Shown here: piece after piece, positions 10,349 to 46,068 of the stretch | How positions within the stretch are numbered: position 1 is the first letter of the stretch | Layout of the letters: every line of letters starts with the position of its first letter | DNA from: Kangsaoukella pontilimi | GTDB taxonomy: Bacteria > Pseudomonadota > Alphaproteobacteria > Rhodobacterales > Rhodobacteraceae | Assembly (NCBI RefSeq): GCF_009830125.1 | Contig: NZ_WUPT01000001.1 | Span: forward strand, 62,001-126,000 | Length of the DNA: 64,000 nt | Reading direction: 5' to 3' | Notes under the pieces: model-generated | What the model was told of the DNA's origin: nothing | The model's database searches: none | The model's input: only the letters and a program-made list of their open reading frames with translations | Made by a program: the position numbers and the translations under genes

Positions 10349-10361
10349 TCATAACGACCTA

Positions 10362-10385
10362 CTGCGGGGCTTCACGGCCCCGCAG
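10362..10385 (+). other. Strong hairpin after the binding-protein gene
   Basis: CTGCGGGGC and GCCCCGCAG give a perfect 9-base stem with a 6-base loop, starting 14 bases after the binding-protein stop. It lacks a T-tract, so it is more likely an mRNA-protecting or partial-termination element than a full terminator; this is an inference from its position. Confidence 0.55.
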
Positions 10386-10405
10386 CCACCGACGGGGGAA
10401 CACAC

Positions 10406-12429: not shown

Positions 12430-12433
12430 GAAC

Positions 12434-13288: not shown

Positions 13289-13399
13289 CGCCGGGTTTCA
13301 ACCAGAGTGTGTCATAGGGCATAGATTTTCTCGTCATTGTGGTGCAATCTTCGGTAAGTGCCGTCGACGAATGACCGGTGCGCCGGGGACCGAAACGAG

Positions 13400-16300: not shown

Positions 16301-16885
16301 AAGAATATGCTGGCTAATGTGCTTGCACTGGTATCGCGGGCGCGTCGGGATGCGACGACCGACATGGCGGTTCTGGACACGCTCGCCTCGCGGATCAATG
16401 CGCTTGCCCACACGCACAAGGTGTTGACCGAAGAGAACTGGCGCGCCGCCGATATCTACGCGCTGATCGGGCCGGAAACGCGCGACATCTACGGCGAAGA
16501 TCGCGTTTCGCTGAAGGGGCCGCCTCTGAAGATGAATGCGCGCGCCTGTCTTGCCATTGGTATGGCCATCCACGAGCTTGCGACAAACGCCGCCAAGTAT
16601 GGCGCGTTCTCGACAGATGCCGGGCGCGTGTCGTTGCACTGGTTCCGGCTGGATGACGGCAACGATGACAAGGTGGTCTTCACCTGGACGGAAAGCGACG
16701 GACCGCCCGTTCCCAAGCGCGAGCGCTCCGGCTTCGGCAGTCAGCTCATCGCCTCGACAATCACCGGAAGCCTGCATGGTGACGTAGTGTTCGACTGGCA
16801 GGAGAGCGGCCTGAAAGTCACTTTGTCGGTACCTTACGAAGAACTGAATGTGGTTAATGAAGATGTTGTCTACGATTTTCTCTGA
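13400..16885 (+). CDS. CheB-CheR-PAS hybrid sensor with HWE-type histidine kinase
   Basis: 1161 residues from ATG 13400. Order: CheB methylesterase (catalytic Ser in GASAGG near residue 21, His in QHLDPDH, Asp in GTGSDG near 140); CheR methyltransferase (SAM motif VPGCSTGQEAFS near 313); a coiled coil with repeated NEEL units near 650-700; two PAS-like regions near 715-940; and a C-terminal kinase. In the kinase, ELQHRVKNML near 962 carries the phospho-histidine and HELATNAAKYG plus TWTES give the HWE signature. No chemoreceptor, CheA or CheW is nearby, so this is a general signal-transduction protein. A longer start at 13358 is possible but less likely. Confidence 0.88.
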   Translation: MPDDTYGDLRLNDGGPLVVGVGASAGGLEAFQSLLASLPPKHSLALILVQHLDPDHESLLPELLAKRTETPVATAEDGTKVEPGHIYLIPPGAFMTIDEGRLRLTKMSTPRGLRRPIDKFFESLASDVGPRGVAIVLSGTGSDGSIGIRAVKEAGGLVFVQDPSQAEYNGMPNSAIETGADDIVLPTQDMYDVISDYFSIRSDLKPSVLSDAEFLQRVAKHIRYRTGHDFGQYKHATFLRRIAVRMSVLGLSEPNAYLKELISNKSEAAKLFRDLLINVTSFFRDPPAFDSLQTEVIRKIVQNKGASDEIRVWVPGCSTGQEAFSIAMLIAEELERTDGDAQVAIFATDIDEDALRMARKGHFPNSIIDEVPEALLARYFTVTPDGYEATPKLREMVRFSNQSIIKDPPFSRIDLVSCRNVTIYFDNELQDFAITVFHYALKEGGYLFLGPSETPRIIDDLFITVDQRNRIFQRRQGPSRRLNFPIQNTTAVVAPDMTAELEAETLYRDPLAHPLISRFSPPFVLTDGSGRLHYTSDRASKYLRIKPGSTRMVITQLIIPELESSLRRLIVKADGGSDVKEVEYRGEIDGQEVRIVLGLAQLEDGSRLIVIDDRLDAHADRPIVMQRQSADTGDYVQELELELERARETIRTTIEELETSNEELKSSNEEMMSMNEELQSANEELSTTNEELQVKIAELRDANQDMANLMRSTRIITIFLDDELRLRFFTPESRNAFRFVDSDRGRRIDDIGSDVDMVMLTRMCRQVLESKVPIEEEISSVGGEKQFLLDIEPYTGEGGPTRGGVVCTMTDVTALRRALHTAESERSSSQRRLAEIEQLYYVSPQAMALLGTDGTYLRINQRMAEINGLGVDSHVGRHMRDVVPDLAAQVDDAFGIVMETGSPVLARRMEGRTPASGSERRLFLTDWYPVQNKGETVAVGVNFRDITEQTEMSAELKRVMQELQHRVKNMLANVLALVSRARRDATTDMAVLDTLASRINALAHTHKVLTEENWRAADIYALIGPETRDIYGEDRVSLKGPPLKMNARACLAIGMAIHELATNAAKYGAFSTDAGRVSLHWFRLDDGNDDKVVFTWTESDGPPVPKRERSGFGSQLIASTITGSLHGDVVFDWQESGLKVTLSVPYEELNVVNEDVVYDFL

Positions 16886-17243
16886 CCGTTCGATCCTCTA
16901 CGTCGAAGACGAGATTATCGTGGCTCTGGAAATCTCCGAGCACCTGCGCGATCTCGGATTCTCGGATGTTCGTGTGGCGCATACGCTGCGCGCAGCCGAG
17001 CGCGAGCTTGAAAAGGGCGTGCCGGATTTCGCGCTGCTCGACGTCAATCTCGGAAACGGCGAGCGCACGTCTGAACTCGGGATATCTCTCAGGGAGCAGG
17101 GAACGCGCGTTCTTTTTGCCTCGGGCTATAACAAGGGCGAGTTGTCCGAGCGTCTGCAGGCGTTCGACTTTCTCGAAAAGCCGACCAGCCATGAAGATAT
17201 TCGGAACGCCCTGGTGCGCATTGCGGATAACGGCAAAGCATAA
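16857..17243 (+). CDS. Single-domain response regulator, FAT GUY-like
   Basis: 128 residues, one receiver domain without output. The acidic pair is in YVEDE, the phospho-acceptor Asp in LLDVNLGNGE, and the VLFASGY motif resembles the F-A-T/S-G-Y class of alphaproteobacterial single-domain regulators. The conserved Lys is in FLEKPTS. Its start lies inside the end of the kinase gene (about 29 bases of overlap), so the two are coupled and it is the probable phosphorylation target. Exact start is uncertain among 16848, 16857 and 16863. HWE kinases of alphaproteobacteria often pair with such regulators in general-stress signalling; that link is inference here. Confidence 0.82.
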   Translation: MKMLSTIFSDRSILYVEDEIIVALEISEHLRDLGFSDVRVAHTLRAAERELEKGVPDFALLDVNLGNGERTSELGISLREQGTRVLFASGYNKGELSERLQAFDFLEKPTSHEDIRNALVRIADNGKA

Positions 17244-17270
17244 AAAAATGGCGGGCCCGGGGGCCCGCCA
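17242..17270 (-). terminator. Rho-independent terminator of the phasin gene
   Basis: TGGCGGGCCC and GGGCCCGCCA form a perfect 10-base inverted repeat with a 2-base centre (17249-17270). On the minus strand it is followed by a run of seven T (17242-17248). It lies 50 bases beyond the phasin stop codon and abuts the convergent response-regulator gene, so it can serve both directions but fits the minus strand best. Confidence 0.85.
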
Positions 17271-17319
17271 GTCAGGATGATGCCAACAGGGAGGACGTTG
17301 GCAATCAGAAACCTGAGAA

Positions 17320-17763
17320 TTACTTCGCGGTCGCCTTCTTGGCGGCGGCGGTCATGTCGTCGGTGGCCTTCTTGACGGCTTTGGTGGCTTCGTCGCCCAT
17401 GTCCTTGCCAGCGGCCAGCATCAGTTCGACGGTTTCCATCTGAACTTTCTTGGCGACTTCGGCGAAGGCAGCCATCGACTCGGCACTCATTTCAGCCTGA
17501 GCCGAAGCGAAGTCGGTCATGGCTTTGGTGTAGTCCGCCGGATCGTCCTTGACGTTGGTGACAACGCCGAACTTGCCGATGGTCGCTTTGGTCCACGAAG
17601 CCGAAATCTCGGTCGACTTTTCAGCAGCGTCGAGAACAACTTTCGACATCTTGTCGGCAAAGGCAGCCTGGGTTTTGAAGGCGTCCTGCATCGCGGTCGT
17701 GTCGACCGGGAAGGCACCCATCATGTCTTTCATCAGTTTGGTGTAGTCGTTGGTCTTGGCCAT
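17320..17763 (-). CDS. phaP: Phasin family protein
   Basis: 147 residues, alanine-, lysine- and methionine-rich, almost entirely amphipathic helix, ending in a lysine/alanine-rich tail (KKATDDMTAAAKKATAK). This composition and the place next to PHA synthase identify a granule-associated phasin. Phasins coat polyhydroxyalkanoate granules, control their number and size, and shield the cytoplasm. A strong GGAGAGAG ribosome-binding site precedes the ATG. Upstream are a sigma70-like promoter and two perfect TGCTGC-N3-GCAGCA operators, so expression is probably repressed by PhaR until polymer accumulates. Confidence 0.88.
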   Translation of the reverse strand: MAKTNDYTKLMKDMMGAFPVDTTAMQDAFKTQAAFADKMSKVVLDAAEKSTEISASWTKATIGKFGVVTNVKDDPADYTKAMTDFASAQAEMSAESMAAFAEVAKKVQMETVELMLAAGKDMGDEATKAVKKATDDMTAAAKKATAK

Positions 17764-17825
17764 GGTCTCTCTCCAATTTGTCTAACGTGTTTGCGGGGAG
17801 GACCCGCTTTCTGCGTCTGCAAAAG

Positions 17826-17854
17826 GATATACATGCTGCAGCGCAGCAAATCAA
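17826..17854 (-). promoter_or_regulatory. Probable phaP promoter
   Basis: On the minus strand TTGATT (17849-17854) and TATATC (17826-17831) are separated by exactly 17 bases. The spacer consists almost wholly of one palindromic operator, so a bound repressor would block RNA polymerase directly. The phaP start codon lies 63 bases downstream of the -10 box. Confidence 0.65.
17834..17848. promoter_or_regulatory. PhaR-type operator 1 upstream of phaP
   Basis: TGCTGC-AGC-GCAGCA, a perfect 6-base inverted repeat with a 3-base centre. It fits the CTGC-N3/4-GCAG pattern reported for the PHA-responsive repressor PhaR of Paracoccus. It lies between the -35 and -10 boxes of phaP. Confidence 0.72.
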
Positions 17855-17859
17855 CCCCT

Positions 17860-17876
17860 TTGCTGCACTGCAGCAA
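17860..17876. promoter_or_regulatory. PhaR-type operator 2 upstream of phaP
   Basis: TTGCTGC-ACT-GCAGCAA, a perfect 7-base inverted repeat with a 3-base centre. It is 27 bases centre to centre from operator 1, that is on nearly the opposite or same DNA face after 2.5 turns, just upstream of the -35 box. Confidence 0.72.
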
Positions 17877-17904
17877 AAAAATTCTTTCTGAATAAATCAG
17901 ACAG

Positions 17905-19704
17905 TTAGGCCTTTTTAGGCGTTTCCGAGACGTATTTCCCGGGCGCAGGGCCCAACACCGGATAGCCCTTGGCCTTGCCCGGGATGCGGGCTTTGACCTG
18001 ACGACCCGACCGCTTGCCCAGCCATTCCTCCCAACGGGGCCACCACGATCCCTCGTGAAACTCCGCAGCCTTGCGCCAGTCTGCCGGCGTGCCCGACCAG
18101 TCGCCGTTGGTGTAATGGCCGTACTTCTTCTTGGACGGCGGATTGACGATGCCGGCGATATGACCCGACTCGGACAGGATGAACGTCTTCGAGCGGCTGC
18201 CCATCTCCTGGACGCCCGCATAGCTCGACGTCCACGCCGCGATATGGTCCGTCTCGCAGGCAATGGCGCAGACCGGGACCTTGACGTCGCTGATCTTCAG
18301 CGTCTCGCCGAACATCTCGAACCCGCCCTTCGCGAAGCGGTTTTCCTGGCAAAGCCCGCGCAGGTAGTCCATCGCCATGCAGGCGGGAAGGTTCGTGCCG
18401 TCGCCGTTCCAGTAGAGCAGGTCGAAGGCTGGCGGTGCCTCGCCCATCATATAGCTGCGGATCGCGGGCTGATAGACAAGGTCGTTCGAGCGCAGGAAGC
18501 TGAACGTCCGGGACATGATGAACTTGTCGAGAATACCATTTTCCGAGACCTCTTCCTCGATCGCGTCGATAAAGTCGTCGGACAGGAACGCGGTGAACTC
18601 GCCCTGATCGTCGAAATCGGTCAGCGTCGTGAAAAGGGTTGCGGATTTGACAGACTTGTCGCCGCGCTTTTCCATCAAAGCCAGCGTCAGCGACAGCGTC
18701 GTGCCGGCGATGCAATACCCGATGGCGTTGACCTGATCCTCGCCAGTGATCGCCTTCACTTCTTCGATCGCGGTCAGATAGCCCTTCTCGACATAGTCGG
18801 AGAGGCCGTAGTCCTTGTAGGATGCGTCCGGGTTCTTCCAGCTGACGACAAACAGCGTGTAGCCCTGTTCGACGATCCACTTGATCAGGCTGTTCTGGGG
18901 CTTGAGGTCCAGGATGTAGAACTTGTTGATCCAGGGCGGAAAGATGATCAGCGGCGTCTTGGCGACAGTGTCGGTCTTGGGCGCGTATTGGATCAGTTCG
19001 AACAGGTCGTTGCGATAAACGACCGATCCTTCAGAGGTCGCGATATTTTCGCCCACCCGGAACGCGTCCTTGTCGGCCAGCGTAACGAGAAGGTCGCCGT
19101 CGTTCGCCTCGATATCGCGGACGAGATTTTCAAGGCCGTCGACCAGAGACTGGCCCTCGGTCTCGACCGCCTTGGCCAGCGCTTCGGGGTTGGTGCCCAG
19201 GAAGTTGGACGGGCTCATCATGTCGACGATCTGGCGTGTGAAATAGCGCACGCGCGCCTTGTCCTTGTCGTCCAGCCCTTCAAGGTCGTCCACTGCCTCA
19301 AAGATCGCCTCGGACGAAAATAGATACTGTTGCTTCAGATAGTTGAAGTAGGGATGCGTTTCCCAAAGCGGGTTCTTGAAGCGGCGGTCGGTCGGGCTGT
19401 TGTCCTCGGGCGGGGTCAGCTTGCCCTGCGCCAGCATGTGCTGCGCATCGACGTAATGCTTCAGCGCCTTGCCCCAATAGCCGATCTGATGCTCGATCAG
19501 CTTCGACGGATTCGACATCATTTCGGCCATGTAGGCCGCAGCCGCCCGGACATAGAGATCCTGCCCGGGGCCCTCGAGGCCCGGATGATGGTGTTTCTTC
19601 TGCGAAATGGCCGCGACGAGGCGCTGCGACAGCTCTTCGATCTTCGCAAGATTCTCGTTCATGCGGTCCAGTTCGGGCGGGGAATTGGTTTCTTCTGTTG
19701 TCAT
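17905..19704 (-). CDS. phaC: Class I poly(3-hydroxyalkanoate) synthase
   Basis: 599 residues, typical of class I PhaC. The lipase-like box GYCIAGTTLS gives the catalytic nucleophile Cys331; the remaining catalytic residues are the Asp in CETDHIAAW and the His in ESGHIAGIVNPP. YWNGDGTNLP is also a family signature. It polymerises (R)-3-hydroxyacyl-CoA into PHA at the granule surface. The gene lies 141 bases downstream of the phaP start on the same strand and is divergent from phaZ. The C-terminus ends in a basic tail. phaA/phaB precursor genes are not in the window. Confidence 0.96.
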   Translation of the reverse strand: MTTEETNSPPELDRMNENLAKIEELSQRLVAAISQKKHHHPGLEGPGQDLYVRAAAAYMAEMMSNPSKLIEHQIGYWGKALKHYVDAQHMLAQGKLTPPEDNSPTDRRFKNPLWETHPYFNYLKQQYLFSSEAIFEAVDDLEGLDDKDKARVRYFTRQIVDMMSPSNFLGTNPEALAKAVETEGQSLVDGLENLVRDIEANDGDLLVTLADKDAFRVGENIATSEGSVVYRNDLFELIQYAPKTDTVAKTPLIIFPPWINKFYILDLKPQNSLIKWIVEQGYTLFVVSWKNPDASYKDYGLSDYVEKGYLTAIEEVKAITGEDQVNAIGYCIAGTTLSLTLALMEKRGDKSVKSATLFTTLTDFDDQGEFTAFLSDDFIDAIEEEVSENGILDKFIMSRTFSFLRSNDLVYQPAIRSYMMGEAPPAFDLLYWNGDGTNLPACMAMDYLRGLCQENRFAKGGFEMFGETLKISDVKVPVCAIACETDHIAAWTSSYAGVQEMGSRSKTFILSESGHIAGIVNPPSKKKYGHYTNGDWSGTPADWRKAAEFHEGSWWPRWEEWLGKRSGRQVKARIPGKAKGYPVLGPAPGKYVSETPKKA

Positions 19705-33875: not shown

Positions 33876-34772
33876 TCAGGCGGCCGATGGCATGCGTTGG
33901 CTTGCGACGAAATCCGCAAGGACTTCAGCGTATTCCGGATCCGATGCCGCAAGGTAAAGCGTGGCCGAGAGCATGCCGGCCTTGGAGCCGCAATCGAAAC
34001 GCTGCCCCGAGAAGCGATAACCTGCGAGGCCACCGCAGGCTTCGGCGCTGCGGGCGATCGCGTCGGTCAGCTGGATTTCGCCGCCGGCGCCCGGCTCCTG
34101 CGTTCTGAGCGCTTCAAAAATCGCCTCGTCGAGTACGTAGCGTCCCACGACGGCCTCCCGCGATGGCGCATCCTGCGGGTCGGGCTTTTCGACCATGCCG
34201 CGGGCCAGAACAGCGGGACCGCGACGCTCGGTGATGTCGAGAACGCCGTATTTGTTCACGTCCTGCTCGGCAACTTCCATGGTCGCGACCAGATGGCCCG
34301 CGTCGAGCTCCTGGTAGGCATGCGTCAGTTCGGAAAGGGCGCCGCGTTCGCCAAGGATGAGGTCGTCGGGAAGGATGACGGCAACAGGCCCCGGCAGCGC
34401 GAGCTTGGCAGCACACAGCACCGCATGACCCAGTCCAAGCGGCTCATGCTGCATTGTGAATACGACATCATCTTCGGGTGTCGTGAACGAGTTCTCGCGC
34501 AATTCCTGCGCCATCTCGTCCTTGCCCTTGGCATGAAGTTCCGACCGCAGACGGGCGTCGTCCATAACGTGGCGCTCAATCGCGCTCTTCGACGGATGGC
34601 TTACGAAAACCATGCGCTCGACCCCGGCTTCTACGGCTTCGTTGATCGCATACTGGATGAGAGGCGTGTCGATCACCGGCAGAAGCTCCTTCGGCGTTGC
34701 CTTGGTGGCCGGCAGAAAGCGCGTTCCAAGTCCTGCGACGGGGAAAATTGCGGTTCTCACTTTTCTCGACAT
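33876..34772 (-). CDS. galU: UTP-glucose-1-phosphate uridylyltransferase
   Basis: 298 residues from ATG 34772. Nucleotidyltransferase signature FPVAGLGTRFLPATKATPKE (residues 10-29 region), VEKPDPQDAPS and the C-terminal RFDCGSKAGML match GalU. It makes UDP-glucose for cell-surface glycans and could also feed glycosyltransferases. It is divergent from the gpsA-HAD-ggpS operon across 356 bases; cyanobacterial GgpS uses ADP-glucose, so supply of that operon by GalU is possible only if this GgpS accepts UDP-glucose. Confidence 0.94.
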   Translation of the reverse strand: MSRKVRTAIFPVAGLGTRFLPATKATPKELLPVIDTPLIQYAINEAVEAGVERMVFVSHPSKSAIERHVMDDARLRSELHAKGKDEMAQELRENSFTTPEDDVVFTMQHEPLGLGHAVLCAAKLALPGPVAVILPDDLILGERGALSELTHAYQELDAGHLVATMEVAEQDVNKYGVLDITERRGPAVLARGMVEKPDPQDAPSREAVVGRYVLDEAIFEALRTQEPGAGGEIQLTDAIARSAEACGGLAGYRFSGQRFDCGSKAGMLSATLYLAASDPEYAEVLADFVASQRMPSAA

Positions 34773-35128
34773 GTGATGCTCTCTCTCTTCTTTTTCTTCA
34801 TGGGTTCCCGGCGTCGAAGCCGTCTTACTGGCCCCTCCGCTAACGAAACGTTCACGGCTTAACGGTCCGGTTGGGCTTTTGTTTCCGCGATGCGGCAATT
34901 TATTCCAATGAGCATCTGGAACTGCTGAAATCATGAGCAGACTGCCCGGGAAAGGTGCAGTTCGATTAGAGAGCGCCGCTTCAAATTAGCATTTTCAACT
35001 TATTTTCGAGATATTCCTTCACGGCGCGCTCTGTCCTCGCGCACGGGATGCGTCAACTTGTCCGGAACCCTTAGCCAGCGGTCGGGTTGGATAAGCGGAC
35101 GCGATTGCTGCAATGCAGGAGAATTCGA
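34773..35128. other. Divergent galU/gpsA intergenic region
   Basis: 356 bases, locally AT-richer around 34980-35020. It must hold promoters for galU and for the glucosylglycerol operon. I could not fix -35/-10 boxes with confidence and see no strong dyad, terminator or small ORF. It is the place to look for osmotic control. Confidence 0.4.
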
Positions 35129-36271
35129 GTGTCTTGGGAACAAAAAAACGGGCGGGCCGGACAGACACGGTCGGCGCCCTTTCAAACGGTTGCGGTGCTT
35201 GGTTCGGGCTCGTGGGGAACGGCGCTCGCGGCGGTCCTCGCTCGAGGTGGCGCGGACGTGCGGCTGTGGGGTCGGCGCGACGATGTGGCGCTTGATATTA
35301 ATGAGAAGCGCGAGAATGCCGTCTACCTGCCGGGCGTGCCCTTGCCGGAACGGCTGACGGCGACCACCGAAATCAGCGAGGCGCTGGATGGTGCCGAAGC
35401 GGCCATGATCGTCGTTCCGTCGCGCTCGGTGCGCTCTGTGGCGCGGGCGGTCGCGGAGTGGGCGGCCGAAGACATTCCCGTCGCCATCTGCGCAAAGGGG
35501 ATCGAGGCCGATACGGGCCTCTTGATGACGCAGGTTGCGGAGGAAGAACTGGGATCGCGCCCGGTAGGCGCCGTGTCCGGCCCGACCTTCGCCCGTGAAA
35601 CGGCGCTCGGCCATCCGACGGCGGCAACCGTTGCCTTCGACTTCCGTTATGCGGACCGGCTTTCGCCTGCGGAAAGCCCTGCGGCGCGCTTTGCTGTCTC
35701 TTTGTCCGACGGTGCGTTCAGAGGGTATGTCTCTGATGACCTCATCGGCGTCGAGATTGGCGGGGCAGTCAAGAACGTCATCGCGATTGCTTGCGGGATG
35801 ATGACGGGTGCGGGCTTTGCCGAGAATACCCGTGCTGCACTCATCACGCGCGGATTGGACGAGATGAAGAGTCTCGCCGAAGCGCTGGGAGGCCGTCGCG
35901 AGACCGTGACGGGCTTGTCTGGCATCGGCGATCTGACCCTCACCTGTTCATCCGAGACGTCGCGCAACATGTCGCTCGGTACGCAGCTTGGCCGCGGGGT
36001 GAAGCGTGAAGACTGTTTCGACGGTCAACCTGTCGTGGTGGAGGGCGAAATGAACGCCCGGTCCATCACCGATCTCGCGCGCCGTGTCGGCGTCTCAATG
36101 CCCATCGCGGAGGCGGTGCGGAAAATCCTTCATGAAGGCGGGGACCTCGCCGAGACATTCACTGCGCTCTGGTCGCGTCCCATCGAGGCCGAGCCGCGTG
36201 CGATGGACCTGTCCTTCGACCATCCGGCGGCCGATGCCGCCCTTATCAAACTGACCGAGAGGTTTGCGTGA
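35129..36271 (+). CDS. gpsA: Glycerol-3-phosphate dehydrogenase [NAD(P)+]
   Basis: 380 residues from GTG 35129, chosen because GGAG lies 7 bases upstream; a TTG at 35087 is the alternative. Rossmann motif VLGSGSWGTALAA near 33, catalytic Lys in CAKGIE, and GLSGIGDLTLTCSSETSRN are GpsA signatures. The start is longer than in usual GpsA (about 330 residues) by a charged N-terminal segment. It reduces dihydroxyacetone phosphate to sn-glycerol-3-phosphate. Its stop overlaps the HAD gene by 4 bases, and the third gene is ggpS, which needs exactly this product, so it appears dedicated to glucosylglycerol synthesis as well as, or instead of, lipid synthesis. Confidence 0.92.
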   Translation: MSWEQKNGRAGQTRSAPFQTVAVLGSGSWGTALAAVLARGGADVRLWGRRDDVALDINEKRENAVYLPGVPLPERLTATTEISEALDGAEAAMIVVPSRSVRSVARAVAEWAAEDIPVAICAKGIEADTGLLMTQVAEEELGSRPVGAVSGPTFARETALGHPTAATVAFDFRYADRLSPAESPAARFAVSLSDGAFRGYVSDDLIGVEIGGAVKNVIAIACGMMTGAGFAENTRAALITRGLDEMKSLAEALGGRRETVTGLSGIGDLTLTCSSETSRNMSLGTQLGRGVKREDCFDGQPVVVEGEMNARSITDLARRVGVSMPIAEAVRKILHEGGDLAETFTALWSRPIEAEPRAMDLSFDHPAADAALIKLTERFA

Positions 36272-37044
36272 CCCTACAGCAATCGATCACCGGACGACCG
36301 ATTTCCGAAACCGACTTCGTACTCGCTACCGACCTGGACGGAACGTTCCTGGGCGGCACGGACGACGACCGCCGCACCCTCTACGACTGGATAGAAGCCA
36401 ACAGGTCCAGTATCGGGCTGATCTTCGTCACCGGGCGAGACCCGGAGTTCATTCTTGAGATGTGTTCCGAGAATGGTCTGCCCTGGCCCGAGTTCGTCGT
36501 CGGCGATGTCGGTACCACGATTGCGCATGTTACAACGGACGGGCGTATCGCTCCGATCGGGCCGCTTGAAGAGGATATCGCTCATCGCTGGGGCGATTCC
36601 GGACCGCGTGTGAGGGACGCCCTCAAGGATGTGCGGGGTCTTGAGTTGCAGCCGACATCCTTCCGCTACCGCGTGAGCTATTACTACGATCCCGAGACCT
36701 TCGAGGACGCGACGCATGATCTGGTCGCTGAACTGGGCTTCGACACGCTCGTCTCGGACGACAAGTATTTCGATGTTCTGCCGAAGGGCGTCAGCAAAGG
36801 GCCGTCTCTGTTGCGCCTTGTTGAGCATCTTGATCTTTCGCCCGACCGTGTTCTTGCCGCCGGCGACACGATGAACGATTTCTCGATGCTGACCTGTGGC
36901 CTGCCGGCCGTGGCCGTCGGCGGATCAGAAGCTCCGCTTCTGGCCGCGCTGGAAGGCCATGATAAGGTGCATCGCGCAGAACCTGTGGGCGCTGCCGGAA
37001 TCCTTGACGCCGTGCGCGCCTTCAATCTGCACCCCACACCCTGA
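36268..37044 (+). CDS. HAD-superfamily phosphatase, probable glucosylglycerol-3-phosphate phosphatase
   Basis: 258 residues with a GTG start overlapping the gpsA stop. HAD motif I is DLDGTFLGG (near 22), motif II FVTGRD, the Lys is in LPKGVSKGPS and motif IV is AAGDTMNDFSM: the Cof/sucrose-phosphate-phosphatase-like class. Lying between gpsA and ggpS it should dephosphorylate glucosylglycerol-phosphate. Cyanobacteria use an unrelated phosphatase (StpA/GgpP); in some heterotrophs a HAD phosphatase domain is fused to GgpS (GgpPS). Here the two are separate genes. Substrate is inferred from context. Confidence 0.78.
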   Translation: MTLQQSITGRPISETDFVLATDLDGTFLGGTDDDRRTLYDWIEANRSSIGLIFVTGRDPEFILEMCSENGLPWPEFVVGDVGTTIAHVTTDGRIAPIGPLEEDIAHRWGDSGPRVRDALKDVRGLELQPTSFRYRVSYYYDPETFEDATHDLVAELGFDTLVSDDKYFDVLPKGVSKGPSLLRLVEHLDLSPDRVLAAGDTMNDFSMLTCGLPAVAVGGSEAPLLAALEGHDKVHRAEPVGAAGILDAVRAFNLHPTP

Positions 37045-37065
37045 CACCCACAGAAAGGAGCCCCC

Positions 37066-38571
37066 ATGTCATCCGATCTGGTCATCGTTTACCACCGCCA
37101 GCCCTATGAGGAGGTTGAGCTCGACGGAAAAATCGAGTTCCGCGAGAACAAGAGCCCGAACGGTATCGTCCCAACCCTGAAGTCATTCTTCGGCAAGGTC
37201 GATCACGGCGCCTGGGTGGCTTGGAAGCAGGCCGAGGACACCGCCAATCCGGGCTTCGACCGCGTCGTCGAAATCGAGGATGATTACGGCAAGTATTCGG
37301 TGTCGCGCCTGCCCCTGACCGAAAATCAGGTCAAGCAGTTCTACCACGTCACATCGAAAGAAGCATTCTGGCCGATCCTGCACGGCTTCAAGGAGCGCTA
37401 TAATTACGACCCCGTCGACTGGCCGAATTTCCGGCAAGTGAACTGGTCCTTCGCCGAGGCCGCCGCATCCGAAGCCGCCGAGGGAGCCCTCGTCTGGGTC
37501 CACGACTACAATCTCTGGCTGGTGCCGGGCTATCTGCGGCAGATGCGGCCGGATGTGAAGATCGCCTTCTTTCACCACACGCCTTTCCCGCCGCCGGATA
37601 TCTTCAACGTGCTGCCGTGGCGGAAGGAAATCACGGAAAGCCTTCTCGCATGCGACGCGGTCGGGTTCCATATCCCGCGCTACGCGGCGAATTTCGTACA
37701 GGTTGCGCGGTCCCTGACGGATGTCGACGTGACGGAACGGGTGCGCGTCTCGGAAGATCTGATTTCGGAAGGCACTGCCCTGACCGAACGCACAGTGCCG
37801 ACGCGTCTGTCGTGGAAAGGCCGGGATGTGATCGTGAACACCGCATCGGTCGGTGTCGACACCGCTTATATCGCGGAACGCGCAGCAACTGACGAGACGG
37901 CAAATCAGGTCGCCCGCATCCGTAAGGAAATGGGCGATGCGCAGCTCATCCTGTCGGTCGGCCGAACGGATTACACCAAGGGCGGCGTCGAACAGATGCA
38001 GAGCTTTGAGCGTGTACTCGAAGCCAATCCCGAACTGCACGGCAAGGTGCGGCTCATGCATGTATCGGTCAGTGCCAACCGGAACATGACCGTCTATGCC
38101 GAGGTGCAGGCCGCCATCGAAGAGACGGCAGGCCGGATCAACGGCCGTTTCGGGCGACTCGACTGGCAACCGATCAGCCTGATCAGCAGACCGATCCCAT
38201 TCGCGGAGCTGGTGGCCTATTACCGGGCCGCCGACGTCGCATGGATCACACCGCTTGCGGACGGGATGAACCTTGTGTGCAAGGAATACGTCTCGGCAAG
38301 AACGGACGGCGCTGGCGTTCTGGTTCTGTCGGAATTCGCCGGCGCGGCGGTCGAACTGGGGTCGGCTGTGATCGCCAACCCGTTTTCGAACCGTTCGATG
38401 GACGAGGCGATCCTTCGCGGCCTGCGCATGGGCGAGGACGAGCAGCGTGCGCGGATGGCCGAGCTCAAGAAGGCGGTCGAGAAATACGACGTCGGGGCCT
38501 GGGGCCGATCCATCGACGAAGTTCTGGGCAAGGTCGGCGGCAGCCCGTCGCCGAAGCCCGAAGCCGCCTGA
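37066..38571 (+). CDS. ggpS: Glucosylglycerol-phosphate synthase (GT20 family)
   Basis: 501 residues, nearly the length of Synechocystis GgpS. The N-terminus LVIVYHRQPYEEVELDGK, then KSPNGIVPTLKSFFGK, HDYNLWLVPGYLRQ, FFHHTPFPPPDIFNVLPW and ILSEFAG-type VLSEFAGAAVELG follow cyanobacterial GgpS more closely than trehalose-6-phosphate synthase OtsA. The enzyme joins NDP-glucose (ADP-glucose in cyanobacteria) and glycerol-3-phosphate. AAGGAG precedes the ATG, 21 bases after the phosphatase. OtsA is the alternative, but gpsA in the same operon and the YHRQPY opening favour GgpS. Confidence 0.88.
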   Translation: MSSDLVIVYHRQPYEEVELDGKIEFRENKSPNGIVPTLKSFFGKVDHGAWVAWKQAEDTANPGFDRVVEIEDDYGKYSVSRLPLTENQVKQFYHVTSKEAFWPILHGFKERYNYDPVDWPNFRQVNWSFAEAAASEAAEGALVWVHDYNLWLVPGYLRQMRPDVKIAFFHHTPFPPPDIFNVLPWRKEITESLLACDAVGFHIPRYAANFVQVARSLTDVDVTERVRVSEDLISEGTALTERTVPTRLSWKGRDVIVNTASVGVDTAYIAERAATDETANQVARIRKEMGDAQLILSVGRTDYTKGGVEQMQSFERVLEANPELHGKVRLMHVSVSANRNMTVYAEVQAAIEETAGRINGRFGRLDWQPISLISRPIPFAELVAYYRAADVAWITPLADGMNLVCKEYVSARTDGAGVLVLSEFAGAAVELGSAVIANPFSNRSMDEAILRGLRMGEDEQRARMAELKKAVEKYDVGAWGRSIDEVLGKVGGSPSPKPEAA

Positions 38572-38766: not shown

Positions 38767-40743
38767 TCAGTTCTTGTCGCGTTCCGCGATCTCGTCTTCC
38801 GTCGTTCTGACGCGTGGCCGGTCACCCATTCGGAAGGGTGACGCCTCTTGGTGATACTGTGCTGTGATACGGCAATCGTCGCACATCTGGATCAGTCGCG
38901 TGTTGTCGGAATTCGTGTACATCCAGTGCTGGCCACTCAGCTTTTCAACGATCCTCTCTATCGTCGATCGGACGCCGAAAGCCTTACCGCATTCGATACA
39001 CTCGAAAGGCTCTTCCTCGTTCAGGACGCGGAATTCCAGAGCCGCTTTCGAGGTATCGAGTTGCGGCACGAGGCTGATTGCATTCTCCGGGCATGTGGAG
39101 GCGCAGATACCGCATTGCAGACACGCGGCCTCCTGGAAACGCAATTGCGGTCGATCCGCGCTGTCGCCGAGCGCGCCGACGGGGCAGAGCGAAACGCAGG
39201 CGAGGCAGAGCGTACAGGCGTCGGTGTCCACGGCAATCGCGCCGTATGGGGCGCCATCGGGCAGCGGAATCGGCGTTTCGCTCTTGGTCATCGCTGCTGC
39301 AGCGATACGGGTCACCTCGCGCCGTCCGCCGAGCGGCAGGATAGGCTCGGCGTCCAGCGGGGCCGCGGGCCCCTCGTCATAAAGTGCGGCTTCGAGCGCG
39401 TCGGGCTCGGCCGGTTCAACCAGTGAAATCTGCGTGTCGTTTTCCAGAATTGCGTTGGCCAGCGCGATTTCCCGGTTGGGCACCGACAGGTCGCTCCGGG
39501 GCCCGGCCAGAACCGTCGCGGTTGCAAAGCCCACGCCGAGCGCCGCCAGCAGTTCGGCATGACCGACGCCCTCGATGTTCGGGACCTCGACCGGGATCAC
39601 GTCAGCAGGCAGACCGCGGCCGAAGCGTGCGGAAAGGCGGATCAGTTCGGCACCATGCTCGGCGTCGTGGAATAGCACCCTAGGCGCGCCGGAACCACCC
39701 GCCTTGCGATACGCCGACGCCAGTGTCCGAAGCCGTGCGAAGAGGTGGCTGACCGGCGGATCGTCATAGCTTGCGGCGCCGGACGGGCAGACCGCCGCGC
39801 AGGCACCGCAGCCGGCGCAAATGTCGGGGTCGATGCTGACGTGGTCGCCTGCCGGCACGATTGCGCCGGTCGGGCAGACCGTCAGACAACGGTCGCAGCC
39901 CTGTTGCGAGGCTCGTGAATGCGCGCAGATCGACGCGTCGTAGCGGATGTAGATCGGTTTCTCGAACGTGCCCTGCAGGTCGCGCGCCTCGGCGATCGCC
40001 GTCTGCACGCGGCGCGGGTCGCCTGGATCGGCGCGAACATAGCCGTCGCGCTTGTGATCGGCGGGAAAGAGCGGGCCTTGGCCCCGGAGATCGAGAATGA
40101 TGTCGCAGCCCGACCGGGCGCCGTCCGCGGCATCGCCGAAGCGCGCGGCACCCCGTCCGCCGGGGAGCATCTGGCGATAGCCGTCCACGACGACCTCGAA
40201 CCGGCCGAGAGAGCCGCTCGCAGATTTCAGCCGTCCGAGCGCCACGTCGAAGAGGTCGGTGGGCACCATGTCGTCTGGCGCGCTGTCCAGAAGCGCTGTT
40301 ACGGCCAGCGTGTCGGACAGCACTTCGGCCGCGTCGAGCACGACGTCGGGCGCGCCGAGGATCAGGCAGGTGCCCGAGGAGTCGATGTCGCGCAGCGGCG
40401 TGGCCGGGCGGGGCAGGGCGGCCTCTGCCAGAAGCGCGGCCTGCTTGGCGAAGGCGCGGCCATCCGCCGTCCAGCCGGCCCGGTCGCGGATATCGGCCGT
40501 GGCGAGGCGGTCGCCCGCACCCAGCTCATCGGCCAACTCCTCGAAAAAGCCTGCCATCTGGCCGCAGGCGATCAGGGTCGTTCCGTCTTCGGCCAGCGCC
40601 TTGGCCGCGACGTCCGTATCGCCAGTGCAGGCCCGCGTTGCGCGGAGGACGCTGGCCCCGGCCAGCGCCGCCGACGCGCTTTCGGGATCGGTCTCCATCG
40701 TGCTTTCGCAGGAACACAGAATAACCCGTTCGATCTTCGCCAT
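38767..40743 (-). CDS. 4Fe-4S binding protein of the formate dehydrogenase locus
   Basis: 658 residues. An N-terminal Cys pair (LCSCEST) is followed by a disulfide-reductase-like region; two ferredoxin-type clusters lie near 280-320 (CDRCLTVCP, CAGCGACAAVCP) and two more near 505-560 (CTLCLACVSLCP, CLQCGICASTCP). The C-terminus has CIECGKAF and CDDCR, possibly a zinc or extra cluster site. Such large poly-ferredoxins accompany DUF3305/DUF3306 and fdh genes in proteobacteria and are thought to serve electron transfer or maturation of formate dehydrogenase. It is divergent from DUF3305 across 92 bases. Cytoplasmic, no TAT signal. Confidence 0.83.
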   Translation of the reverse strand: MAKIERVILCSCESTMETDPESASAALAGASVLRATRACTGDTDVAAKALAEDGTTLIACGQMAGFFEELADELGAGDRLATADIRDRAGWTADGRAFAKQAALLAEAALPRPATPLRDIDSSGTCLILGAPDVVLDAAEVLSDTLAVTALLDSAPDDMVPTDLFDVALGRLKSASGSLGRFEVVVDGYRQMLPGGRGAARFGDAADGARSGCDIILDLRGQGPLFPADHKRDGYVRADPGDPRRVQTAIAEARDLQGTFEKPIYIRYDASICAHSRASQQGCDRCLTVCPTGAIVPAGDHVSIDPDICAGCGACAAVCPSGAASYDDPPVSHLFARLRTLASAYRKAGGSGAPRVLFHDAEHGAELIRLSARFGRGLPADVIPVEVPNIEGVGHAELLAALGVGFATATVLAGPRSDLSVPNREIALANAILENDTQISLVEPAEPDALEAALYDEGPAAPLDAEPILPLGGRREVTRIAAAAMTKSETPIPLPDGAPYGAIAVDTDACTLCLACVSLCPVGALGDSADRPQLRFQEAACLQCGICASTCPENAISLVPQLDTSKAALEFRVLNEEEPFECIECGKAFGVRSTIERIVEKLSGQHWMYTNSDNTRLIQMCDDCRITAQYHQEASPFRMGDRPRVRTTEDEIAERDKN

Positions 40744-40835
40744 GACCTCGGACTCCTCCCTCCGAATCCCGACCTTGCGGCGGCATACTGGTCAGTTGTT
40801 TTGACAATGGCAAACAAGCTGCGTTTAGTCATGTC

Positions 40836-41420
40836 ATGAGCAAAACGACCGACATCGCTTCCAAGGAGATCGTGATCCCGCTCGGCGTCGTTCTGCGCCG
40901 CAGCCCGGGTGTCACGCGCTGGGCCAAATGGGCGTGGAAAGCGGTTGCGCTGATTCCCGGCGCCACCGAGGCGGGCTGGCGCGTTCTTCGCGAGGAAAAC
41001 GGCCATACCGAATACCTCGCCGCTGTCGCGCGGCTGGAGCTTCACGCGACCGAGGTGGGCTCATACCGCACGTCACTGATGATGACGCCTCCGTCGATCT
41101 TCGTCGTTCTCGACAAGGGCGCGCATGTGGAAAACGAGCATGGAGTCGACGTCCATGTCGTGACGGCATCGGCGGACATCGCGGGCGATTACACCGATAG
41201 CGCCGAGGTGCTGGTCGAGCCGGTGGCGATGCCCGATGCGCTTGTCGCTATGATCCGAGATTTCTGCGAGGCGCATTACAGGGAAACCGAATTCAAGAAA
41301 CGCCGGCGCGACAGGGCTCGGGTGGACCTGACGCAGGACGGCAAGGGCGATCCGCGAATCCGCCAGGAGTCGGACGTCTATCGCGCTCCGGCCGGCCTGA
41401 AGCCCGGAGCGTCGAAATGA
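40836..41420 (+). CDS. DUF3305 family protein (formate dehydrogenase locus)
   Basis: 194 residues. PLGVVLRRSPGVTRWAKWAWKAVALIPG, read in parts near 16-44, then WRVLREENGHTEYLAA identify DUF3305, a family seen almost only in molybdoenzyme formate dehydrogenase clusters. It overlaps the following DUF3306 gene by 4 bases. Cytoplasmic and without cofactor motifs; a maturation or assembly role is inferred from consistent linkage. Confidence 0.85.
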   Translation: MSKTTDIASKEIVIPLGVVLRRSPGVTRWAKWAWKAVALIPGATEAGWRVLREENGHTEYLAAVARLELHATEVGSYRTSLMMTPPSIFVVLDKGAHVENEHGVDVHVVTASADIAGDYTDSAEVLVEPVAMPDALVAMIRDFCEAHYRETEFKKRRRDRARVDLTQDGKGDPRIRQESDVYRAPAGLKPGASK

Positions 41421-42034
41421 GCGGCGACGACGACAGCCTTCTATCCCGTTGGAGCAAAAGGAAAAGGGCCGTTGCCGAAGAGGCGCGGGTCGAAGAAAAG
41501 CCTATGCCTGAGGCGGTCGGAAGTGACGATGCTGCCGTCGGGGCCATGCCGGAACCGTTTGAGGATGAGCCAGAGGACGTGGTCCTTGCGCGGCTTGGCT
41601 TGCCCGATCCCGACACGCTCGGGGCGGGGGACGATTTCTCGGGCTTCATGCGGGCGGGCGTACCCGATCTGATTCGCAAACGTGCGCTTCGACGTCTCTG
41701 GCGCAGCAATCCCGTTCTGGCGAATGTCGACGGGCTGAATGACTACGATGAGGATTTCAACTCGCCTGAAGAGACATTGAAGATCCTCAAGACCGCCTAT
41801 CAGGTCGGGCGCGGATTCCTGAGGCCGGAGCCCGAATCGACGGACTCTGAAACAGATTCGGCGAGCGTCGTTGACGAGACGACAGATGATGCCGTGGCCG
41901 CCGGGGCCGAGACCCATGAAGACGCGCCTCATGCCGCGCCCGAAGGCACAGGCCATCCGGCACCGACGGAAGCGCCTGCGGAGGCTCGTGAACCCGCGCC
42001 GGCCCGCCCCCAACGGATGCGCTTTCGAACCTGA
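41417..42034 (+). CDS. DUF3306 family protein (formate dehydrogenase locus)
   Basis: 205 residues. The opening LLSRWSKRKRAVAEEAR and the central FMRAGVPDLIRKRALRRLWRSNPVLANVDGLNDYDEDF, seen in parts at about 75-115, define DUF3306. The C-terminal 70 residues are low-complexity Glu/Ala/Pro-rich and end in basic PQRMRFRT. It is translated in overlap with DUF3305 and is a probable partner. Function unknown beyond linkage to fdh. Confidence 0.85.
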   Translation: MSGDDDSLLSRWSKRKRAVAEEARVEEKPMPEAVGSDDAAVGAMPEPFEDEPEDVVLARLGLPDPDTLGAGDDFSGFMRAGVPDLIRKRALRRLWRSNPVLANVDGLNDYDEDFNSPEETLKILKTAYQVGRGFLRPEPESTDSETDSASVVDETTDDAVAAGAETHEDAPHAAPEGTGHPAPTEAPAEAREPAPARPQRMRFRT

Positions 42035-42108
42035 GAGCGGGGCGCACGTTCCACAGGCGCCGGATTGGAAAATTTATTTGCCCAGACAAAAAACTTGCCG
42101 TAGCGTGA

Positions 42109-42756
42109 ATGTGTGCAACGGAATACTGGGAACCGCGAGTGAGCCAAAAGAGCCAAACGGCCGGGCTTGATGTGCAGATTGCCGAGGAAGATCTTCTTCG
42201 CGCAGACCTCTATGCCATGCTCGCACGTCTTCTGGCAGGACCGCCCGACACCGCGACGCTTGAAAGCGCCTCGAAACTGGGTGGAGACGGCTCTGACCTC
42301 GGGCAGGGCGTGGCCGCCCTGGCAAAGGTGGCGGCCTCTGCGGCGCCTTCGGGCGTCGAACGCGAATACAACACGCTTTTCATCGGTCTCGGACGCGGCG
42401 AGCTTCTGCCCTATGCCAGCTATTACCTGACCGGTTTCCTGAACGAGAAGCCGCTGGCGCGGCTGCGCGGGCACATGGCCCAGCTCGGGATCGAGCGGAA
42501 CCCCGACGTGAAAGAGCCGGAGGATCACATCGCCACGCTCTGCGAGATGATGGCGGGTCTGATCCGTGGCGCCTATGGCGACCCGCTGTCGCTCGACGAT
42601 CAGCACGCCTTCTTCAACACACATCTCGCCACATGGGCGGGACATTTCTTTACCGACCTCGAAGCCGCCGAGAACTCGGTCTTCTATGCGCCTGTCGGCA
42701 AGATCGGCCGCGCCTTCATGGAGATCGAGATCGAAGCCTTCAGGATGGACACCTGA
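42109..42756 (+). CDS. TorD/DmsD family molybdoenzyme chaperone
   Basis: 215 residues, all-helical TorD-like. EEDLLRADLYAMLARLLAGPP near 25-45 (in two parts), REYNTLFIGLGRGELLPYASYYLTG in the middle and EPEDHIATLCEMMAGLI are typical. Such chaperones bind the twin-arginine leader of the molybdoenzyme until cofactor insertion is complete; the target here is FdhA. ATG 42109 is used, but GTG 42139 is a reasonable alternative since the first ten residues look unrelated. Upstream 74 bases are AT-rich and may hold a promoter. Confidence 0.83.
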   Translation: MCATEYWEPRVSQKSQTAGLDVQIAEEDLLRADLYAMLARLLAGPPDTATLESASKLGGDGSDLGQGVAALAKVAASAAPSGVEREYNTLFIGLGRGELLPYASYYLTGFLNEKPLARLRGHMAQLGIERNPDVKEPEDHIATLCEMMAGLIRGAYGDPLSLDDQHAFFNTHLATWAGHFFTDLEAAENSVFYAPVGKIGRAFMEIEIEAFRMDT

Positions 42757-42800
42757 CGCCGGACGCGGCGTCGCCAAGACGATAGAAAGGGAGGATCACC

Positions 42801-42989
42801 TTGGAAGACGAAAAGAAGCAGAAGAGCAGCCGAAGGGACTTCCTGAAACTTGCGGGCACGGCTGCGCCGGTTGCCGCCGTGGCGATGGCCACGGGCGCGA
42901 CTGAAGCCGCCGCCGAAGAGGCGCCGACAAGCCTCGGTATGAAAAAGACGGGTCACGTCAAGCAGTACCTCGATACAGCGCGATTCTGA
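42801..42989 (+). CDS. Formate dehydrogenase region TAT-target small protein
   Basis: 62 residues from a TTG start with an excellent AAAGGGAGGATCACC upstream. The twin-arginine motif SSRRDFLKLAGT lies near residue 10, followed by a hydrophobic stretch (AAPVAAVAMATG) and a short mature tail ending QYLDTARF. This matches the small TAT-signal proteins known from fdh loci (FdhX-like, TIGR02811 type). It sits directly before fdhA; a role in assembly or membrane attachment is assumed. Confidence 0.82.
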   Translation: MEDEKKQKSSRRDFLKLAGTAAPVAAVAMATGATEAAAEEAPTSLGMKKTGHVKQYLDTARF

Positions 42990-43010
42990 GACAGCGGAGA
43001 TTTCGCAAGG

Positions 43011-43065
43011 GGGCGTGACGACGTCCGCCCTCGGACGAAAAGTCCCGGCGAGGCAACGGGCCGGG
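43011..43065 (+). other. Structured leader between fdh TAT protein and fdhA
   Basis: GGGCG (43011-43015) pairs with CGCCC (43026-43030), and CCCGGC (43044-43049) with GCCGGG (43060-43065), giving two short hairpins upstream of the fdhA ribosome-binding site. They could be simple mRNA structure or a control element; evidence is weak. Confidence 0.3.
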
Positions 43066-43083
43066 CAATAGGGAGACAGGAAT

Positions 43084-46068
43084 ATGCTCAGGAAAAAGAC
43101 AGGCGGGGCGTCGGCGATACGGTCCCGGTCGATCCTTTCCCAGGTTGGTGAGAAGAAGGTGGACCGCCGCGGATTCCTCCGCGGCTCGGGTCTGGCCGTA
43201 GGTGGCCTCGCAGCGCTGGCGACCGTTGGCGGGCGCGTCGCCCCGGCGGCAGCTCAGGCAGCGGCACAGGGCCGGGTCGAGATCGTCAAGTCGGTCTGCA
43301 CCCACTGCTCGGTCGGCTGTACCGTTCTGGCCGAGGTCGAAAACGGCGTCTGGACCGGTCAGGAACCGGCTTGGGACAGCCCCTTCAACCTGGGCGCCCA
43401 CTGCGCCAAGGGCGCGGCTGTCCGCGAGCACGCCCATGGCGAGCGTCGCCTGAAGTATCCGATGAAGCTGGAAGGCGGCGAGTGGAAGCGCGTCTCCTGG
43501 GAGCAGGCCATCGACGAGATCGGCGACCAGATGCTGTCGATCCGCGAGGAAAGCGGCCCCGACTCGGTCTACTGGCTCGGCTCGGCCAAGCACAACAACG
43601 AGCAGGCCTACCTGTATCGCAAGTTTGCCGCCTACTGGGGCACGAACAACATCGACCATCAGGCGCGTATCTGTCACTCGACGACGGTTGCCGGTGTGGC
43701 GAACACATGGGGCTACGGCGCCATGACCAACAGCTACAACGACATCCACAACAGCCGCGCGATCTTCATCATCGGCGGCAACCCTGCCGAAGCGCATCCC
43801 GTGTCTCTCCTGCACGTTCTGCGCGCGAAAGAGCAGAACAACGCGCCCCTGATCGTCTGCGACCCGCGCTTCACGCGGACCGCGGCCCATGCCGACGAGT
43901 ATGTCCGCTTCCGGCCGGGCTCGGACGTTGCGCTGATCTGGGGCATTCTCTGGCACATCTTCGAGAACGGGTGGGAGGACAAGGAATTCATCCGCACCCG
44001 CGTCTGGGGCATGGACCAGATCAAGGAAGAGGTCGCCCGCTGGACGCCAGAGGAAACCGAGCGTGTGACCGGGGTGCCGGGCAGCCAGCTCGAGCGCGTC
44101 GCGCGCACGATGGCGAACAACCGACCCGGCACCGTGATCTGGTGCATGGGCGGCACCCAGCACACCAACGGCAACAACAACACCCGCGCCTATTGCGTGC
44201 TGCAGCTTGCGCTCGGCAACATGGGCACCTCGGGTGGTGGCACGAACATCTTCCGCGGCCATGACAACGTGCAGGGTGCGACGGACCTTGGCGTCCTCGC
44301 CGACACCCTGCCGGGCTACTACGGTCTTGCGCCGGGCTCGTGGGCCCACTGGGCGCGCGTCTGGGAAGAGGATCTCGACTGGCTCAAGGGCCGCTTCGAC
44401 GTGATGGAAGGTGCCGGCACCGATGGTGCAGACCGCCTGATGATGAACGAGCGCGGCATCCCGGTCAGCCGCTGGATCGACGGTGTTCTGGAAGACCGCG
44501 AGGCCCTTCAGCAGCCCGACAACACGCGGGCGATGGTGCTCTGGGGCCATGCGCCCAACTCACAGACCCGTCTGCCGGAAATGAAGACGGCGATGGAAAA
44601 ACTCGACCTTCTGGTCGTGGTGGACCCGTATCCGACCGTCTCGGCGATTTTGCATGACCGGACCGACGGCGCCTACCTGCTGCCGGCGTGCACGCAGTTC
44701 GAGACCTATGGCTCGGTCACCGCGTCCAACCGCTCGCTCCAGTGGCGCGAGACGGTCGTGGAGCCCCTGTTCGAGAGCCGTCCGGACCACAACATCATGG
44801 CGATGTTCGCCCGGAAGTTCGGCTTTGATGACAAGTTCTTCCGCAATATCGAGGTGGTCGAGACCGACCGTGGCCCCGAGCCGAAGATCGAGGACATCAC
44901 CCGCGAGTTCAACCGCGGCATGTGGACGATTGGCTATACCGGCCAGTCGCCCGAGCGGATGCGCCTGCACATGGCCAACCAGCACACCTTCGACCGGACG
45001 ACGCTCCGGGCGAATGGCGGTCCTGCCGATGGCGACTACTACGGGATGCCGTGGCCCTGCTGGGGCACGCCTGAGATGAACCATCCGGGCACGGCGAACC
45101 TCTACGACATGTCGCTGCCGGTCTCGAAGGGTGGTCTGACGTTCCGGGCGCGCTTCGGCGTCGAGCGGGACGGCGACAACCTTCTCGCCGAAGGCGTCTA
45201 CAGCCAGGGTTCGGAAATCCAGGACGGCTATCCCGAGTTCACCATGCAGATGCTGCAGGACCTGGGCTGGGATGCCGATCTGACTGCTGAAGAGCGGGCC
45301 TCGATCGAGCGCGTCGCCGGTTATGTCCGCGAGGGCACGGCAGAGGTCGGTGAACAGTCCCAGCAGGGGCCATACCCGTCGGATTGGCAGCCGAAGATCG
45401 GCGGCGTCAACTGGAAGACCGACCTTTCCGGAGGCATCCAGCGGGTGGCGATTGCCCACGAATGCGCGCCCTTCGGCAACGCCAAGGCCCGCGCCGTGGT
45501 CTGGACCTTCCCCGACCCGGTGCCGACGCACCGCGAGCCGCTCTACTCGAACCGGCGCGATCTGGTGGCGGATTACCCGACCTACGACGACAAGACCTTC
45601 TGGCGCGTGCCCACCATGTACGCATCGATCCAGCAGAACGACTTCAGCCAGGACTACCCGATCATCCTGACCTCGGGCCGTCTGGTCGAATACGAGGGCG
45701 GCGGGGACGAGACCCGGTCGAACCCGTGGCTGGCCGAGCTTCAGCAGGACATGTTCGTCGAGATCAACCCGCGCACCGCGAACAACATCGGTATTCGGGA
45801 TGGGGCTCAGGTCTGGGTCGAAGGCCCCGAAGGCGGCAAGGTCAAGGTTATGGCCATGCTGACCGAGCGGGTCGCCGAAGGCGTCGCCTTCATGCCCTTC
45901 CACTTCGGCGGGCATTTCCAGGGCGAGGACTGGAGACACAAATATCCGGCAGGGGCGGACCCATACGTCCTTGGCGAAAGCTGCAACACCGCACAGACCT
46001 ATGGCTACGACTCCGTGACGCAGATGCAGGAGACCAAGGCCACGCTCTGCAAGATCACTGCGGCCTGA
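43084..46068 (+). CDS. fdhA: Formate dehydrogenase alpha (molybdopterin) subunit, cysteine type
   Basis: 994 residues. Twin-arginine signal (KKVDRRGFLRGSG near 22-34) for periplasmic export, the 4Fe-4S motif Cys72, Cys75, Cys79 and Cys107, and the active-site segment ARICHSTTVAG with Cys197 as the Mo/W ligand where E. coli FdnG/FdoG has selenocysteine. GGNPAEAHPVS and the C-terminal molydopterin-binding GHFQGEDWRHKYP region are as in respiratory FDH-N/O type enzymes. It oxidises formate to CO2 and passes electrons through FdhB and FdhC to quinone. The GGAGACAGG upstream is a good ribosome-binding site. Confidence 0.94.
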   Translation: MLRKKTGGASAIRSRSILSQVGEKKVDRRGFLRGSGLAVGGLAALATVGGRVAPAAAQAAAQGRVEIVKSVCTHCSVGCTVLAEVENGVWTGQEPAWDSPFNLGAHCAKGAAVREHAHGERRLKYPMKLEGGEWKRVSWEQAIDEIGDQMLSIREESGPDSVYWLGSAKHNNEQAYLYRKFAAYWGTNNIDHQARICHSTTVAGVANTWGYGAMTNSYNDIHNSRAIFIIGGNPAEAHPVSLLHVLRAKEQNNAPLIVCDPRFTRTAAHADEYVRFRPGSDVALIWGILWHIFENGWEDKEFIRTRVWGMDQIKEEVARWTPEETERVTGVPGSQLERVARTMANNRPGTVIWCMGGTQHTNGNNNTRAYCVLQLALGNMGTSGGGTNIFRGHDNVQGATDLGVLADTLPGYYGLAPGSWAHWARVWEEDLDWLKGRFDVMEGAGTDGADRLMMNERGIPVSRWIDGVLEDREALQQPDNTRAMVLWGHAPNSQTRLPEMKTAMEKLDLLVVVDPYPTVSAILHDRTDGAYLLPACTQFETYGSVTASNRSLQWRETVVEPLFESRPDHNIMAMFARKFGFDDKFFRNIEVVETDRGPEPKIEDITREFNRGMWTIGYTGQSPERMRLHMANQHTFDRTTLRANGGPADGDYYGMPWPCWGTPEMNHPGTANLYDMSLPVSKGGLTFRARFGVERDGDNLLAEGVYSQGSEIQDGYPEFTMQMLQDLGWDADLTAEERASIERVAGYVREGTAEVGEQSQQGPYPSDWQPKIGGVNWKTDLSGGIQRVAIAHECAPFGNAKARAVVWTFPDPVPTHREPLYSNRRDLVADYPTYDDKTFWRVPTMYASIQQNDFSQDYPIILTSGRLVEYEGGGDETRSNPWLAELQQDMFVEINPRTANNIGIRDGAQVWVEGPEGGKVKVMAMLTERVAEGVAFMPFHFGGHFQGEDWRHKYPAGADPYVLGESCNTAQTYGYDSVTQMQETKATLCKITAA

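Follow-up and report, generated by a model that had tools for sequence, protein, structure and literature searches.

The window, a 64,000-nucleotide stretch of the Kangsaoukella pontilimi genome, carries three consecutive genes for a glycerol-3-phosphate dehydrogenase, a HAD phosphatase and a GT20 glycosyltransferase. Do these genes form a pathway of their own, which compound would it make, and how does the arrangement compare with known systems? The locus is very probably a dedicated glucosylglycerol (GG) biosynthesis module; this confidence applies to the GG pathway itself, and the UDP-glucose donor and the EcfG steps are less certain. The features of the locus are:

33876-34772, minus strand: galU', second, diverged UTP-glucose-1-phosphate uridylyltransferase paralogue, divergent from the operon (TIGR01099; linked clade)
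34773-35128, no strand: galU'/gpsA' divergent intergenic region, between both coding regions
35064-35088, plus strand: EcfG-like promoter candidate GGAAC-N16-GGTT (motif match; motif enriched upstream in relatives)
35129-36271, plus strand: gpsA', operon-linked NAD(P)H-dependent glycerol-3-phosphate dehydrogenase (PF01210/PF07479; NF000942; clade apart from housekeeping gpsA)
36268-37044, plus strand: HAD-IIB (S6PP-like) phosphatase, proposed glucosylglycerol-3-phosphate phosphatase (GgpP, heterotrophic type; PF05116; GgpPS N-domain homology)
37066-38571, plus strand: ggpS, predicted glucosylglycerol-phosphate synthase (GT20; TIGR02398; clade apart from OtsA)

The gpsA' gene started with GTG at 35129, with AGGAG upstream, and its end at 36271 ran over the GTG start of the HAD gene at 36268 by 4 bases. 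The HAD gene ended at 37044, and a 21-base gap with an AGGAG-type ribosome site led to the ATG of ggpS at 37066. The tight coupling of the three genes described in the first-pass annotation was seen at both junctions, and the phosphatase is separate from the synthase as it had claimed, with its own open reading frame (ORF), a stop codon and the 21-base gap. The Pfam domains in operon order were NAD_Gly3P_dh_N and NAD_Gly3P_dh_C, S6PP (PF05116) and Glyco_transf_20. That annotation missed galU', which lies divergently upstream and is part of the conserved locus. Directly observed for the locus were the protein families, the order of the genes, the status of gpsA' and galU' as paralogues and the relationships by sequence; the gene order was kept in dozens of genomes, and chance was therefore excluded. 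The gntR, ettA and fdh genes, other neighbours in the window, showed no consistent linkage to ggpS across loci.

Judged by its sequence, the GT20 protein is GgpS rather than OtsA, as the first reading had it. It scored 659.1 bits on the GgpS equivalog TIGR02398 (cut-off 569, passed) and 405.7 bits on the OtsA equivalog (cut-off 564.85, failed), and it was the sole GT20 protein of the genome. Scores on the GgpS model were bimodal among 296 genomes of the family, with 52 at 580-688 bits and the others at or below 286. The GT20 phylogeny that had been proposed as a check compared separate-type GgpS and fused GgpPS with the OtsA of E. coli and eight OtsA-like proteins from the window's own family; it separated GgpS from OtsA with an SH-aLRT of 100 and placed the window protein outside OtsA. 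Within GgpS, the separate type (SH-aLRT 98) and the fused type (82) were sister groups. Arginine R301 of E. coli OtsA (Met1 counted), which we take to be R300 of the crystal numbering and a glucose-6-phosphate contact, was invariant in 9 of 9 OtsA sequences, whereas all GgpS proteins compared had Asn, Ala or Ser at this position (N338 in the window protein). Donor-side motifs common to OtsA (R300, K305 and D399-N402 in the numbering of the window protein) were retained.

The operon might instead make trehalose, with the GT20 protein as OtsA and the HAD protein as trehalose-6-phosphate phosphatase. The pairing of a GT20 synthase with a HAD phosphatase resembles OtsA/OtsB, OtsA is of the same family, the PDB relatives of the GT20 protein are trehalose-phosphate synthases, and trehalose-6-phosphate phosphatases are among the HAD-IIB folds. 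However, the window GT20 protein fell in another clade than the OtsA of E. coli and Rhodobacteraceae, fitted another model and had lost the OtsA-invariant acceptor-site arginine; its partner phosphatase was nearest to sucrose-phosphatase and GgpPS, not to OtsB; and the gpsA of the operon fits glycerol-3-phosphate, not glucose-6-phosphate. We consider a trehalose pathway extremely improbable and reject it on the equivalog models, the tree and the acceptor-site residue.

The phosphatase scored 140.6 bits on PF05116 (S6PP), and the genome had no other S6PP protein; wherever the flanks of a locus were intact, the phosphatase gene lay next to ggpS. The HAD motifs are intact, as first noted: D22/D24, T55, K177 and D200/D204 were all present and were invariant or nearly so among relatives. 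The AlphaFold model (pLDDT 93) had the Synechocystis sucrose-phosphatase 1s2o as its closest structure. Sucrose-phosphatase (SPP) belongs to the same Pfam family and is the best structural match, but the window phosphatase reached just 69.9 bits on the SPP equivalog, far under the cut-off of 183.65, and is encoded next to ggpS as its partner. A comparison with Pfam and NCBIfam at an E-value of 0.001 gave no phosphatase match to cyanobacterial GgpP models, and S6PP and HAD families alone were hit. The first-pass annotation set the separate phosphatase apart from the fused GgpPS as a distinct arrangement and suggested a comparison with the GgpPS N-terminus. Fused GgpPS-like proteins of other classes in the phylum have an N-terminal domain to which it was 36-43% identical, and the HAD catalytic residues were conserved in both, so it is a homologue of that domain and not independent of GgpPS. 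Because of this identity, the best reading is that the phosphatase would be an unfused GgpP of the kind known from heterotrophs rather than one newly recruited.

The gpsA' product scored 372 bits on NF000942 (cut-off 257), with both Pfam domains present. The genome contained two gpsA genes, one of them at the ggpS locus. A linked gpsA was found in 45 of the 52 ggpS-positive genomes, and two copies occurred in 34 of 52 ggpS-positive against 0 of 51 ggpS-negative genomes (Fisher p 3e-14, relatedness not corrected). Linked gpsA proteins were 50-78% identical to that of the window and unlinked ones 35-42%, and in the tree the linked genes formed one clade apart from housekeeping gpsA. The two copies in the genome, the separate clade and the copy-number contrast bear out the suggestion that the operon gene is a dedicated second copy. 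In 11 ggpS-positive genomes (G048, G066, G072, G083, G125, G150, G170, G183, G211, G253 and G259) the linked gpsA was the only copy found, and it may therefore have taken over phospholipid synthesis from the housekeeping copy there.

The dedicated gpsA' also bears on whether the product could be a related glycoside, such as another glucosylated polyol phosphate, built on glycerol-3-phosphate or an acceptor like it. The window GgpS was just 46-48% identical to the synthase domains of fused GgpPS, and to our knowledge no enzyme of the alphaproteobacterial GgpS clade has been assayed. Against this, acceptor-side motifs were common to the window GgpS and the fused GgpPS clade, and gpsA was linked in most ggpS-positive genomes. 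A related glycoside thus seems quite unlikely, and GG is the product that we prefer.

As to the glucosyl donor, the galU' product scored 270.7 bits on TIGR01099, under the cut-off of 326.8, with galF and rmlA far lower, which leaves GalU as clearly the best family. The genome had two galU genes; the other scored 326.8 bits on the same model, and linked galU' in the genome survey ranged over 225-282 bits. Linked galU' proteins were 62-73% identical to the window galU' and unlinked or housekeeping galU 43-51%, and the linked ones formed one clade (SH-aLRT 99) distinct from housekeeping galU. In 27 of 80 named loci a galU' was present, each time placed divergently at one and the same position upstream of the operon; it adjoined the ggpS locus in 15 of the 52 ggpS-positive genomes, and apart from the three core genes no other real neighbour was seen as often. 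An adjacent galU' was missing from about two thirds of the named loci, so it is not essential. Together, gpsA' and galU' suggest a committed supply of glycerol-3-phosphate and UDP-glucose.

On the other hand, GgpS may work on ADP-glucose in the same GG pathway, as in cyanobacteria, with galU' a mere neighbour that serves another need for UDP-glucose, for example surface polysaccharide. The Synechocystis GgpS depends on ADP-glucose and does not accept UDP-glucose instead (PMC6004087), a linked galU' is missing from most loci, and the window genome carries glgC (493 bits, cut-off 425), so ADP-glucose is available too. What speaks for a role of galU' is its rank after the core genes, its constant divergent place, its own clade and its pairing with the dedicated gpsA', which parallels precursor supply. 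We regard this ADP-glucose reading as a serious possibility that falls somewhat short of an even chance.

With UDP-glucose as donor, the pathway would run as follows: GpsA' would reduce dihydroxyacetone phosphate to glycerol-3-phosphate, GalU' would convert glucose-1-phosphate to UDP-glucose, GgpS would transfer the glucosyl group to glycerol-3-phosphate to give phosphorylated glucosylglycerol, and the separate HAD phosphatase would remove the phosphate to release GG, an osmoprotectant; an EcfG-type promoter would make the operon stress-induced. We infer these reactions, the GG product, UDP-glucose as donor (rather than or besides ADP-glucose) and the EcfG-type stress induction from the gene content and relationships above. 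The full proposal, in which a galU'-gpsA'-ggpP-ggpS module makes GG from UDP-glucose with both precursors from dedicated paralogues and under the EcfG/PhyR general stress response, is put forward tentatively. If true, this four-gene module would be a marine alphaproteobacterial GG route biochemically distinct from the cyanobacterial ADP-glucose route.

GGAAC-N16/17-CGTT is the EcfG general stress promoter. Of 82 non-redundant 400-base regions upstream of gpsA, 15 contained this motif, where dinucleotide shuffles gave an expectation of 0.19; the spacing peaked at 16 and 17. The window candidate at 35064-35088 has GGTT instead of CGTT as second element and alone does not exceed chance expectation, and a sigma-70 promoter scan gave no candidate. 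On plasmid pDSHI02 of Dinoroseobacter shibae (NC_009956.1, 153 kb), the operon region at 10074-18400 has genes for a sigma factor, a NepR anti-sigma factor and a response regulator within a few genes. Osmotic induction of the operon through an EcfG-type system could be hypothesized.

How special is this arrangement? The heterotrophic systems of Stenotrophomonas, Pseudomonas, Azotobacter and Marinobacter use a fused GgpPS (PMC10873239). The window operon is like them in its homologous phosphatase and synthase domains, their order and the sister position of the synthase clades, but differs in having two separate genes, a dedicated gpsA and, across loci, often a galU beside them. It resembles the cyanobacterial GgpS and GgpP (Synechocystis sll1566 and slr0746) in the separate genes and the synthase match to TIGR02398, whereas its phosphatase is of S6PP/HAD type, its gpsA-HAD-ggpS operon is tight and its donor is possibly another one. 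In some cyanobacteria gpsA, glpD or glpK is found near ggpS (PMC6753628).

Among 133 ggpS loci, which include some genomes fetched twice, 126 had a separate phosphatase, with gpsA directly upstream in 112 of these; five were fused, all from other classes, and two were cut off before the phosphatase. None of the alphaproteobacterial ggpS genes with intact flanks was fused, and gpsA lay directly upstream in most of these loci. This type of ggpS was present in 52 of the 296 genomes, about one in six sampled genera of the family, and the named scan of 80 loci placed 61 in Rhodobacterales and 13 in Hyphomicrobiales (Hoeflea, Oricola, Cohaesibacter and others). The arrangement is not particular to this genome but the usual alphaproteobacterial form across the loci surveyed. 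The synthase gene is already named ggpS by NCBI in relatives, including the plasmid-borne copies of Dinoroseobacter shibae (pDSHI02) and Falsirhodobacter, which stand beside a HAD hydrolase that carries no gene name. In the open-access literature we found no description of a gpsA-phosphatase-ggpS operon, an absence that is no proof, and no earlier report of the dedicated gpsA subfamily or the linked divergent galU clade. Since heterotrophic systems are given there as fused (PMC10873239), the open literature searched seems to hold no account of the separate form; we apparently see a known pathway in a widespread arrangement that has so far gone undescribed.

This module is probably the means by which many marine and salt-tolerant alphaproteobacteria produce GG as an osmoprotectant. 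Rhodobacter sulfidophilus reportedly accumulates GG (Severin et al. are said to have described it in 1992); the open-access search found no such paper. GG has been measured in the sea, and in an open-ocean study no transcript for its production or degradation could be linked to it (PMC8269247). The presence of ggpS in 52 of 296 genomes, including cultured Dinoroseobacter shibae DFL 12, makes the alphaproteobacteria testable GG producers. If real, a GgpS that uses UDP-glucose and belongs to a compact operon supplying its own precursors would also be of use for making GG in UDP-glucose-rich hosts.

Several further loci were observed. The two fused loci with flanks (L153 and L154) were without gpsA or galU, and a nearby ORF looked MFS transporter-like by eye; it recalls ycaD, which is co-expressed with GG synthesis in Stenotrophomonas (PMC4390839). 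A candidate fused alphaproteobacterial GgpPS (L035) was rejected: its 885-residue frame was the ggpS frame extended upstream, and the phosphatase lay in a different frame, so the two are separate. L155 (2686-3388, the same place as L040), from another class, had a separate phosphatase-ggpS pair with the phosphatase split over two frames, either a real frameshift or an assembly error. In the window, a convergent gene downstream of ggpS is followed by formate dehydrogenase-like genes (38767-46068; a ferredoxin-like protein, a maturation chaperone and a molybdopterin subunit), without linkage to ggpS elsewhere. An alphaproteobacterial-type ggpS locus stood under an actinobacterial label (L077, JAFKDC010000001.1, Enemella evansiae), and this genome is probably mislabelled or contaminated.
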